Shown in pieces: positions 603-9,237 of a DNA stretch of 9,237 nucleotides. The position numbers and the translations under genes are program-made. The stretch is from positions 1 through 9,237 of the forward strand of contig JALGZO010000346.1 of the NCBI GenBank assembly GCA_025774865.1. The letters are read 5' to 3'. This DNA comes from a bacterium (GTDB lineage: Bacteria; ARS69). The notes beneath the pieces were generated by a model. The model saw nothing but the letters and a program-made list of their open reading frames with translations, had not been told where the DNA came from and did not search any database. Position 1 is the stretch's first letter. Each line of letters starts with the position of its first letter.

Positions 603-2024
603 TCAGCTCCGGAGTGTGCTCGTAAGTCGTTCGACGATGTGACGAAGTTCTGGGTCGGTTGTCTTCGCGGATCCGATTTTCTCGCAGGCGTGCATGACTG
701 TCGTGTGGTCGCGGCCACCGAAGCGACTGCCGATCTCCGACAGCGACAGTGAGGTGAGTTCGCGCGACAAGTGCATCGCGATCTGTCTCGGGTATGCGAG
801 AGAGGTGGTCCGCTTCTTCACCTTCATTGCCTCTTCGGGAATACCGAAGTGGTCGGCGACGACCCTCTGAATCTGTTCCACCGTGACGATCTTGTCGTGG
901 TGCCCGAGGAAGTCTTTGAGCACGCCGCGGGCGAGGTCGATGGAGAGATCGTTGTCAGTGAGGGAAGCGAACGCGAGTAGTCGGATCAACGACCCCTCGA
1001 GCTCTCGGATGTTGGAACGCACGTTAGACGCGATGAACTCGAGCAGGTCGTCGGCGATCTCTAGATCATCATCAGCCGCTTTCTTCCGTAGAATGGCGAT
1101 GCGGGTCTCGAGATCCGGCGGCTGGATGTCGGTGACGAGTCCCCACTCGAAACGCGAGACCAGCCGCTCTTCGAGGGTCGGGATCTCCTTCGGTGGACGG
1201 TCCGATGTGATCACGATCTGCTTGTGGGCATCGTGCAGCGCGTTGAACGTGTGGAAGAACTCTTCCTGGGTGGACTCCTTTCCCTGTAGAAACTGAATAT
1301 CGTCGATGAGGAGGACGTCGACGCGACGATACTTGTTTCGGAAGTGCCAAGTGCGCCCCCCCTGAATCGCGCCGATCATCTCGTTCATGAAGCTTTCGGC
1401 GGACGCGTAGTGCACGATCGTGCCGGAGTCGTTTGTCTGGACGATGTGGTTGCCGATCGCCTGCATGATATGGGTCTTGCCGAGGCCCGAGCCACCGAAG
1501 ACGAACAGGGGATTGTAGGCGGTGGCAGGATGCTCTGCGACGGCGCGGGCCGCGGCGTGACAGAACTGATTCGACTTACCGACGACGAACTGCTCGAACA
1601 TGTACTTGGGATTGAGCGGCGTGGAGACGCGGGGTGCGTCACCCACGGTGGGGATGCTGGTCACCCGGGCGAGCCGCGACGAGTAGGCGGCGTACGCGGG
1701 GTCCAGAGCGGGCGGCGATGGTTCCGGCGCAACGTCACGGGCTGAACCCGGCGCGGAACGATCGAAGCCGCCGGCGTCACCGAGCACGAGCTCGATGCGC
1801 CCACCGGGCCCGAGTCGCTCTGTGGCCGAACCCTGTAAAAGGCCCGCGAATCTATCCTGCACGTACTGGAGATGAAACAGGTTCGGGGCCTCGAGTCTGA
1901 GAGCGGAGCCTACAGCCGGGCGGGCCATGAGAGGCCGCAACCAGGTCTCGAGTTCCTGCGATGTGACGCGGCCCGAGAGATCCGCGAGCATTCCGGACCA
2001 GACGTCACCGGAGACAGTGGTCAT
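603..2024 (-). CDS. dnaA: Chromosomal replication initiator protein DnaA
   Basis: The product is the AAA+ ATPase that binds DnaA boxes, opens the origin and loads the helicase. From the ATG at 2024 it has 473 residues, a normal length. Domain I is about 1-80. A Pro/Ala/Ser-rich linker follows to about 130. The AAA+ core has Walker A GGSGLGKTH (177-185), Walker B LLIDDIQF (238-245), sensor 1 ITSDRPP (272-278), a box VII arginine region ERLVSRF (286-292) and sensor 2 NIRELEGS (338-345). Domain IV carries the DnaA signature GGRDHTTVMHACEKI (436-450). A TTG five codons upstream is in frame, but the ATG is preferred because GGGAG lies 8 bases before it. DnaA-box clusters flank the gene on both sides, which suggests autoregulation as well as initiation. 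Confidence 0.98.
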   Translation of the reverse strand: MTTVSGDVWSGMLADLSGRVTSQELETWLRPLMARPAVGSALRLEAPNLFHLQYVQDRFAGLLQGSATERLGPGGRIELVLGDAGGFDRSAPGSARDVAPEPSPPALDPAYAAYSSRLARVTSIPTVGDAPRVSTPLNPKYMFEQFVVGKSNQFCHAAARAVAEHPATAYNPLFVFGGSGLGKTHIMQAIGNHIVQTNDSGTIVHYASAESFMNEMIGAIQGGRTWHFRNKYRRVDVLLIDDIQFLQGKESTQEEFFHTFNALHDAHKQIVITSDRPPKEIPTLEERLVSRFEWGLVTDIQPPDLETRIAILRKKAADDDLEIADDLLEFIASNVRSNIRELEGSLIRLLAFASLTDNDLSIDLARGVLKDFLGHHDKIVTVEQIQRVVADHFGIPEEAMKVKKRTTSLAYPRQIAMHLSRELTSLSLSEIGSRFGGRDHTTVMHACEKIGSAKTTDPELRHIVERLTSTLRS

Positions 2025-2030
2025 CGAGTT

Positions 2031-2037
2031 TTCTCCC
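2031..2037 (-). promoter_or_regulatory. Shine-Dalgarno sequence of dnaA
   Basis: Read on the minus strand, GGGAGAA lies 6 bases before the ATG at 2024. It would overlap the alternative TTG start at 2039, and so decides for the ATG. Confidence 0.6.
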
Positions 2038-2045
2038 AAACACCG

Positions 2046-2149: not shown

Positions 2150-2169
2150 TTATCCACAGAAGTGGAAAA
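2150..2169. promoter_or_regulatory. Perfect DnaA box with an inverted partner
   Basis: TTATCCACA at 2150-2158 is a perfect consensus box. After 2 bases comes AGTGGAAAA (2161-2169), an inverted 7 of 9 match. The head-to-head pair is the strongest DnaA site upstream of dnaA and probably anchors the upstream half of the origin. Confidence 0.7.
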
Positions 2170-6529: not shown

Positions 6530-8347
6530 GTGAGTTCGTCGAGAGCGGTGGACATCGTCGTGGTCGGAGCGGGGCACGCCGGAATCGAGGCGAGCTTGGC
6601 CGCGGCCCGGAGCGGATGCCGCATCGCGATGGTGACGCTCGAGCGGACGAGTGTCGGTCGCATGTCGTGCAACCCGGCGATCGGTGGCGTCGCGAAGGGC
6701 CACTTGGTGCGCGAGATCGATGCGCTGGGCGGTCAGATGGGGCGCGCCATCGACGAGGCGGGTGTCCAGTATCGGATGCTGAACACAGGCAAAGGTCCCG
6801 CCGTGTGGGGTCCCCGCGCCCAGGCGGACCGTGAGCTTTACGGGCGAGTGATGTGCCGCGTCGTGGGAGACGAGCCCGGCATCGAGATCATCGAGGGGGA
6901 AGTGGGCGAGCTGCTCGCGCGCGACGGCGTCGTTCGCGGCGTGCGGCTGACGGACGGTCGCACGATCGGGTCGTTCGCCGTGATCCTCGCAACCGGGACG
7001 TTTCTCGGCGGTCAGATGTTCGTCGGGGATCGGACGATGGTCGGCGGGCGACGGGGGGAGCCGGCCGCGACGAGGCTCACTCGCAGCCTGACCGCGCTGG
7101 GCCTGCGAGTGGGGCGCCTGAAGACGGGGACGCCCCCGCGGATCTTGCGCGGCGACCTCGAACTTGCGCAGCTCGAGCGACAGCCCGGCGATCGGGACCC
7201 GCGGCCGTTCTCACACTTCGGCGTCGCGCCACCCGATCGACCCCAGCTGGAATGCTATCTCACGCGGACGACGCCGGAGACACACGCCATCGTGCGCGAG
7301 AGCCTCGAGCTGTCCCCCCTTTACACCGGGAAGGTCCGCGGAACCGGACCGCGATACTGTCCTTCACTCGAGGACAAAGTCGTCCGCTTCCCCGACGTGG
7401 GCGGTCATCTCTTGTTTCTCGAGCCGGAGGGTTGGGACACCGACGAGATCTACGTCAACGGTCTGTCCATGTCCTTGCCGGTCGCGGTCCAGACCCGGGT
7501 CCTCCGAACGATTCCGGGAATCCGCGGTGACGTCGTGCCGCATCGACCGGGTTACGCAGTCGAGTACGACTTCGTGGATCCCACGGAGCTCGATCGCACG
7601 CTTCGGTGCCGCGGGGTGCCGGGCCTGTACTTGGCGGGGCAGATCAACGGCACCACCGGTTACGAAGAGGCGGCGGCGCAAGGGCTGGTAGCGGGTGTCA
7701 ACGCGGCCAGACAGCTGGCCGGCAGGGCCCCGTGGATCCTGGGGCGAGACGAGTCGTACATCGGTGTCCTGGTCGACGACCTCGTGACAAAGGGCACGGA
7801 CGAACCATACCGGATGTTCACATCTCGGGCGGAGTACCGTCTCCACCTGCGGCAGGACAACGCCGACGAGCGGATGCTTCGGCACGCCCGGGAACTGGGA
7901 CTTCTCTCTCTCGCGGACCTCGCGTGGCTGGAGCGCCGAGTCCAGCGGGCCGACGAGCTCGAAGGGCGGTTGCACCGCGAGAAGACCGGAGGTGTCGCCC
8001 TGGCAGACCTGCTGGTGCGCCCAGAAACGACCCTGGCGGCCTGGGCAGACAGCCTCACCTTTCTGGGGGTGTATTCACCCGAAGAGCGCGAGAAGGTCGA
8101 GATTCGGCTGAAATATCGCGGCTACCTCCAGCGAGAGAAGAATCGGATTCGCCGATTCCGAGATCTCGAGGGAGTGCGCATCCCGGAGAGACTCGACTTC
8201 GCTGAGATCCGGGGCATGTCGATGGAGGGGCGGGAGAAGCTGGCGCGGATCCGCCCCGAGACCGTCGGGCAGGCGTCGAGGATCTCGGGCGTCTCCCCAG
8301 CTGATGTCTCGGTTCTGCTCGTCGCGCTCCGGAAGAAGGCCGGTTGA
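6530..8347 (+). CDS. mnmG: tRNA uridine-5-carboxymethylaminomethyl(34) synthesis enzyme MnmG
   Basis: The FAD-dependent partner of MnmE in wobble-uridine modification. It has 605 residues, slightly short of the common 620-630. The FAD fold starts with VVGAGHAG (11-18). The family block [22 protein letters not shown] covers 47-68, followed by QYRMLN and [14 protein letters not shown] (80-100). Both conserved cysteines are present: C47 and C277 (RYCPSLEDK), the same numbers as in E. coli. A second nucleotide-fold block, [21 protein letters not shown], lies at about 364-384, and the C-terminus has [21 protein letters not shown] at 6530 has GAGGAG about 8 bases upstream and starts 12 bases after mnmE stops. 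It overlaps rsmG by 4 bases. Confidence 0.98.
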
Positions 8348-8955
8348 TCCAGGAGGGTCAGGTCCGAGGTGTGCTCGGCACGGTCGTTGACCGCGAAGGC
8401 GGTGGTCCGGACGGCTGGGAGCGACGCGTTGCACTCTTCGTCAACCTTCTGGTGCAGTGGAATCAACGCATCAACCTCGTTTCTCGGACGACCGTGGACC
8501 AGGTGCTCACGGCACACGTGCTTCCGAGCCTGGCGCCCCTCCCCCTCGTCGCCCCCGACCGAGATCTGCGAGTGCTGGACATCGGCAGCGGGGGTGGCTT
8601 TCCGGGGATCCCTCTGCGAATCCTCAGACCGCGGGTTCGGCTCGACCTTGTCGAGGCAACCCGGAAGAAGTGTCTGTTCCTGGAGCAGTGTGTGGCGGAA
8701 CTAAACCTGGAAGGAACCGCCGTGCACTGGTGTCGGATCGAGACGCCCGTGCCGGAGCTCCGCGCTCGCGCTCCGTTCGACCTGGCGTTTGCGAGGGCCG
8801 TCGGCGGGGAACCCGGAGTAGTCAGGGGGGTGCGGGGATTGCTGCGGTCCACCGGCGAGGCCTGGACCTTCGTGGCTCCCCTGTCCGCCGGCGCGGAACA
8901 CGTCTGGGCCGATCCGAACGGTCGGATGATCACGGCACTGCGGCGGCTCGTCTGA
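8344..8955 (+). CDS. rsmG: 16S rRNA (guanine(527)-N7)-methyltransferase RsmG
   Basis: It methylates G527 of 16S rRNA in the decoding region using S-adenosylmethionine. It has 203 residues, a little short. WNQRINLVS (39-47) is the family's N-terminal motif. The cofactor loop is [14 protein letters not shown] (78-91), followed by [12 protein letters not shown] (102-113). RAVG (151-154) stands where RAVA is usual. After this it drifts: the usual KG near the end is replaced by FVAP (176-179) and the C-terminus is short. The TTG at 8344 overlaps the mnmG stop (TTGA), so coupling is likely. GTG at 8371 is an alternative, downstream of AGGAGGG (8351-8357) but with a long 13-base gap. The first parS site lies 7 bases past the stop. 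Confidence 0.93.
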
Positions 8956-8962
8956 CGAGAAG

Positions 8963-8978
8963 TGTTTCACGTGAAACA
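8963..8978. promoter_or_regulatory. parS: parS site 1
   Basis: A perfect palindrome TGTTTCACGTGAAACA, identical to the B. subtilis parS consensus. ParB (Spo0J) binds it and spreads with CTP. It begins 7 bases past the rsmG stop. Confidence 0.95.
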
Positions 8979-9045
8979 ATCGGACGGGACCCCTCGCCAC
9001 AGGCCATCCGCCATCGGCCACGGGCGGCCCGGCCCCAGCAGCAGG

Positions 9046-9061
9046 TGTTTCACGTGAAACA
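9046..9061. promoter_or_regulatory. parS: parS site 2
   Basis: A perfect 16-bp parS palindrome, preceded by GG rather than the AG seen at the other copies; 83 bases from site 1. Confidence 0.95.
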
Positions 9062-9102
9062 ACTGGAATAGGGTCCTCCCAGGCGGCTCCCGCCGCGGCT
9101 AG

Positions 9103-9118
9103 TGTTTCACGTGAAACA
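9103..9118. promoter_or_regulatory. parS: parS site 3
   Basis: A perfect 16-bp parS palindrome, 57 bases from site 2. It begins the first of the two duplicated repeat units. Confidence 0.95.
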
Positions 9119-9161
9119 ATTTGGGGGCGGCGCCCGGGGAGAGAGCTCCCTCTGTGACCAG

Positions 9162-9177
9162 TGTTTCACGTGAAACA
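9162..9177. promoter_or_regulatory. parS: parS site 4
   Basis: A perfect 16-bp parS palindrome, 59 bases from site 3. It begins the second duplicated unit. Confidence 0.95.
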
Positions 9178-9222
9178 ATTCAGGGGCGGCGCCCGGGGAG
9201 GGAGAGCTCCCACTGTGATCAG

Positions 9223-9237
9223 TGTTTCACGTGAAAC
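9223..9237. promoter_or_regulatory. parS: parS site 5, cut by the window edge
   Basis: The first 15 of 16 bases of the palindrome match; the last base lies outside the window. It is 61 bases from site 4, so the array may continue to the right. Confidence 0.9.

Follow-up and report, generated by a model that had tools for sequence, protein, structure and literature searches.

A dense array of identical parS sites directly after rsmG in a bacterial origin region, probably a ParABS centromere enlarged by tandem duplication

The window analysed here (9237 bp) is the whole of contig C350 (G000:C350) of a fragmented MAG, which comprises 785 contigs and 4.72 Mb and is 92.65% complete with an estimated contamination of 8.3%. 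On the minus strand it carries a partial dnaN and dnaA (603..2039; PF00308, E 8e-70), and on the plus strand rpmH (identified by eye in the sequence), rnpA, yidC, mnmE, mnmG (gidA, 6530..8347, by gene-family match) and rsmG (gidB, 8344..8955; PF02527, E 4e-34), which encodes the 16S rRNA methyltransferase and also scores above the TIGR00138 cut-off. The gap between dnaA and rpmH contains an exact DnaA box (TTATCCACA, 2150..2158, plus strand), for which 0.02 occurrences are expected at up to one mismatch; on sequence grounds this gap is a candidate oriC, and it lies some 6.8 kb away from the array described below. The presence of dnaA in the window places that array in the origin region, where mnmG and rsmG, assigned by their gene families, and the exact DnaA box accompany it.

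The array begins 7 bp after rsmG. Perfect copies of the palindrome TGTTTCACGTGAAACA lie at 8963..8978, 9046..9061, 9103..9118 and 9162..9177 (no strand assigned), and a fifth copy at 9223..9237 retains 15 of its 16 bases, the last being cut off by the contig end. All of them fit TGTTNCACGTGNAACA, the 16-bp palindrome by which the parS of chromosomal ParABS systems is recognized. By chance, 0.15 such sites per window would be expected when up to three mismatches are allowed, and four sites were reached in none of 200 shuffles. Furthermore, the 12-mer core TTTCACGTGAAA has five copies in the entire 4.7-Mb assembly, every one of them within 8963–9237. The sequence data thus support the identity of the palindromes as parS. 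An earlier note on this DNA had counted five identical sites within 275 bases, the last four at intervals of 57–61 bases, and both statements hold, with the fifth site one base short. Indeed, the start-to-start distances are 83, 57, 59 and 61 bp. The same note had described the spacing as near-helical in phase, which the measurement contradicts: at 10.5 bp per turn the distances correspond to 7.90, 5.43, 5.62 and 5.81 turns, and the sites therefore do not lie on one face of the helix. In-phase spacing was rejected on these turn counts together with the pooled pairs from the surveyed genomes considered below.

The spacers tell how the array grew. Spacer 3 (9119..9161, plus strand) and spacer 4 (9178..9222, plus strand) are two copies of one sequence, identical in 39 of 45 columns of a gapped alignment (87%; score 32.5 versus −2.9 ± 3.2 in shuffles) and distinguished by a 2-bp indel and four substitutions. 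Spacer 2 shows at best a weak similarity to spacer 3 (4.0 versus −2.7 ± 3.0), and spacer 1 shows no clear relationship to spacer 3 or spacer 4. The proposal that the array grew by duplication is therefore borne out for at least one tandem event. All parS copies are identical while the duplicated spacers have diverged, the pattern expected if selection preserves the sites and lets the spacers drift. The GC-rich inverted repeats said to be shared by the spacers (GGCGCC; GGGAG...CTCCC) are indeed common to spacers 3 and 4 but are absent from spacers 1 and 2. As for a structural role, the folding z-scores of spacers 1 to 4 against their own dinucleotide shuffles are 0.63, 0.04, −0.05 and −0.34, so that the suggested structure is not apparent and shuffled sequence folds about as well. 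The visible array showed no promoter-like site and the rsmG strand no terminator, the sole terminator-like site being on the opposite strand; an Rfam search of the window returned no match.

Because the window is an entire contig, its right-hand end marks a break in the assembly that falls within the array. The array sequence was found on no other contig of the assembly. Nor was parA found in it: the only AAA_31 match, on contig C512, was rejected as ParA and reads as an Mrp-type ATPase. Of the cognate parA and parB, which the earlier note had proposed to find by extending the contig, the assembly yielded a parB fragment on contig C523. The fragment is truncated, beginning at the first base of its contig, and encodes a ParB of the canonical chromosomal type that carries the GERRWRA motif and whose nearest solved structure is 7bnr (E 1.7e-42). 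Since the break falls within a repeat and the assembly yielded no parA, the array probably extends past the edge, and the missing stretch from C350 to C523 probably contains its remainder, parA and the start of parB. With neither parA nor the beginning of parB recovered here, we infer the join of the array to parAB from the sister genera, in which both genes lie directly downstream.

These genera were represented by the four other genomes of the family listed by the search (G001–G004), each belonging to a different genus; RsmG homologues on contigs of other genomes reached no more than 44% identity and, being this distant, were left out of the spacer comparison. A parS site lies beside parA in all four, and it occupies the rsmG–parA gap wherever the contig is long enough to show it. 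In G001 this gap contains seven perfect sites at distances of 36, 35, 137, 68, 77 and 62 bp, the last being followed after about 450 bp by parA and then parB. Two sites 36 bp apart occupy the gap in G003, a single site with one mismatch that in G002, and in G004 at least one site precedes parA before the contig ends. The position of parS is thus conserved, while its number (from one to at least seven) and its spacing are not. When the parS sites were masked, the spacers of the window had no match in the four genera, the best being 12 bp at E 0.14. Conservation of the spacers together with parS, the less expected part of the earlier proposal, thus finds no support, and the outcome is the one that the note had named as refuting it: across the rsmG–parA regions of the four genera only the 16-bp sites are kept.

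Some further features of these loci may be recorded. Sequences resembling DnaA boxes (TTATCCACA and one-mismatch forms) occur above chance between parS and parA in three sister genera (L131, about 11900–12110; L130, 1915–1950; L133, about 11400–11420) and could, judging from their sequence, possibly form a second DnaA-binding region beside the centromere. In the rsmG–parA gap of G003 (L132), the two parS sites are accompanied by a perfect 22-bp inverted repeat whose arms are separated by about 336 bp (about 7449–7470 and 7807–7828), possibly a small mobile element or a structured RNA. In addition, a lone parS core lies at 940–953 of a 4.9-kb contig of G001 (L135, G001:C425), about 250 bp before an ORF that weakly matches the phage replication initiation family phrog_1408 (E 5.6e-6); this contig is perhaps a mobile element borrowing the host ParB, or a binning contamination.

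Dense parS clusters are known from other bacteria, as the earlier note had mentioned for Myxococcus. In M. xanthus, 22 sites form a 3-kb cluster about 4 kb upstream of parA (PMC3899335), the number being given elsewhere as 24 (PMC3778016), and the cluster yields largely one ParB ChIP peak (PMC10387095). The resemblance to the window, with five sites in 275 bp, lies in a dense cluster in the origin region, a canonical ParB and a place beside parAB, which for the window is taken from the sister genera. The M. xanthus sites differ in being more numerous, in spreading over 3 kb, in their distance of about 4 kb from parA and in their consensus TGTTCCACGTGGAACG, whereas the window has at least five TGTTTCACGTGAAACA sites directly after rsmG. 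C. crescentus likewise has close sites near the origin, and these load sliding ParB clamps, but only one close pair is described, two of its five sites being separated by 42 bp, and the five give three separate ChIP peaks (PMC10387095).

Two parS cores with 18–48 bp between them were found in 30 genomes out of a spread of 386; such pairs occur in 31 of 80 genomes in the phylum of G176 and in 41 of 246 in that of G248. G176, which is unrelated to the window, has 12 sites between rsmG and parA and a 182-bp duplication at 92% identity; G297 has three sites at exact 47-bp steps with a duplicated spacer, and G394 six sites 51–52 bp apart with a repeated spacer. Both G176 and the sister genus G001, with 12 and seven sites, share with the window the rsmG–parA position, the core and an irregular spacing, and the units of G176 are duplicated as well; in both, however, the spacer sequences are unrelated to those of the window and the distances are different. 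A different arrangement was seen in G603, where thirteen parS-like pairs, in which GTTTCACGTGAAAC recurs at a distance of about 34 bp or more, are scattered between 0.1 and 2.4 Mb of the 3.4-Mb genome, the inner sequence being similar in some; they have the look of a dispersed repeat with the parS palindrome inside it.

Helical phase was tested on close parS pairs pooled from the three sets (386 genomes; 80 from the phylum of G176; 246, of 400 planned, from the phylum of G248). The null was uniform over 32–62 bp, the distances were entered by hand from printed matches, and the scattered G603 pairs were left out because they are unlike a centromere. Pairs 32–62 bp apart favour distances near 36–37, 47–48 and 57 bp, with almost none at 39–41 bp. 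In the first set they lean to half-integral turns (P about 0.07–0.10 versus uniform at 10.5 bp). When the second set was tested at the phase of the first, P was 0.006 counting one pair from each genome and 0.027 counting one from each genus, although on its own this set was not significant at the level of families (P 0.28). The third, with the half-turn phase fixed beforehand, gave P 0.030 (one per genus). With families weighted equally, P was 0.015 for the second and third sets together and 0.002 for all sets, and in-phase spacing was disfavoured; the period that fits best is closer to 12 bp than to 10.5 bp. We tentatively raise the possibility, which we hold to be somewhat less than even, that close parS sites across bacteria are preferentially placed n+1/2 helical turns apart, in which case adjacent ParB dimers would load on opposite sides of the helix. 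This is a lead, the opposite of the in-phase proposal, and the array in the window follows it only loosely.

Taken together, the array is very probably an ordinary ParABS chromosomal centromere near oriC that was amplified by tandem duplication and would serve to load ParB. The centromere reading is based on the sites, their context, the gene order of relatives, the duplication and the lack of spacer conservation. The kind of feature, a clustered parS centromere, is already known, and the spacer repeats amount to a single duplication that the four relatives do not share. ParB–CTP clamps are known to load at parS, slide off and bridge distant DNA (PMC10387095, PMC12462528). By analogy, ParB dimers would load on each site of the array as CTP-dependent clamps, slide onto neighbouring DNA and bridge it into a partition complex that ParA would move, and several sites packed into a few hundred base pairs could jointly serve as a single strong loading station close to oriC. 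The number of sites would be raised by local tandem duplication, through unequal recombination or slippage, with the spacers copied passively each time; selection would hold the 16-bp sites while the spacers drift. Any advantage of several sites is likewise our inference, and the need for them is doubtful. Since a single parS near oriC suffices in studied species (PMC7022226), the array may be a robustness feature, or a nearly neutral growth of tandem repeats in which the sites are kept by selection.

Other explanations deserve consideration. The spacers might themselves be functional, as a second protein site, as a determinant of ParB spacing or as hairpins shielding the array from transcription through rsmG. 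The likeness of spacers 3 and 4, their GC-rich composition and their shared inverted repeats would fit such a role, but spacers 1 and 2 do without these repeats, the masked comparison with four genera came out empty, the folding scores are near zero and the rsmG strand has no terminator, which together make a function of the spacers very improbable. We consider it still harder to believe that the near-identical units are an artefact of assembly. It is true that the MAG is in many contigs and that this one ends inside a repeat; nevertheless, the units differ by substitutions and indels, similar arrays are present in independently assembled genomes, and the collapse of repeats would reduce the number of sites, not increase it.

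The centromere might in addition double as a ParB-bound operator that controls transcription of parAB. The location of parS between rsmG and parA in the family speaks for this, as does the precedent of P. aeruginosa, in which ParB at the intergenic sites parS3 and parS4 represses adjacent genes (PMC7022226). On the other hand, the last parS of G001 is some 450 bp away from parA, and the visible array is without a promoter-like site, the parA promoter itself falling in the assembly gap. We therefore regard the operator role as unlikely, although not far-fetched.

With the array read as a centromere, the present work documents a dense parS cluster in a poorly known bacterial lineage. Should the half-turn tendency hold up in a larger test, it would narrow the models that can describe the loading of adjacent ParB clamps and, if true, would give parS arrays a geometric rule. 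More generally, tandem duplication appears to have produced such arrays near parA repeatedly, with the spacers carried along passively, and duplicated spacers would thus record the growth of an array, rather than being evidence of a second binding factor.
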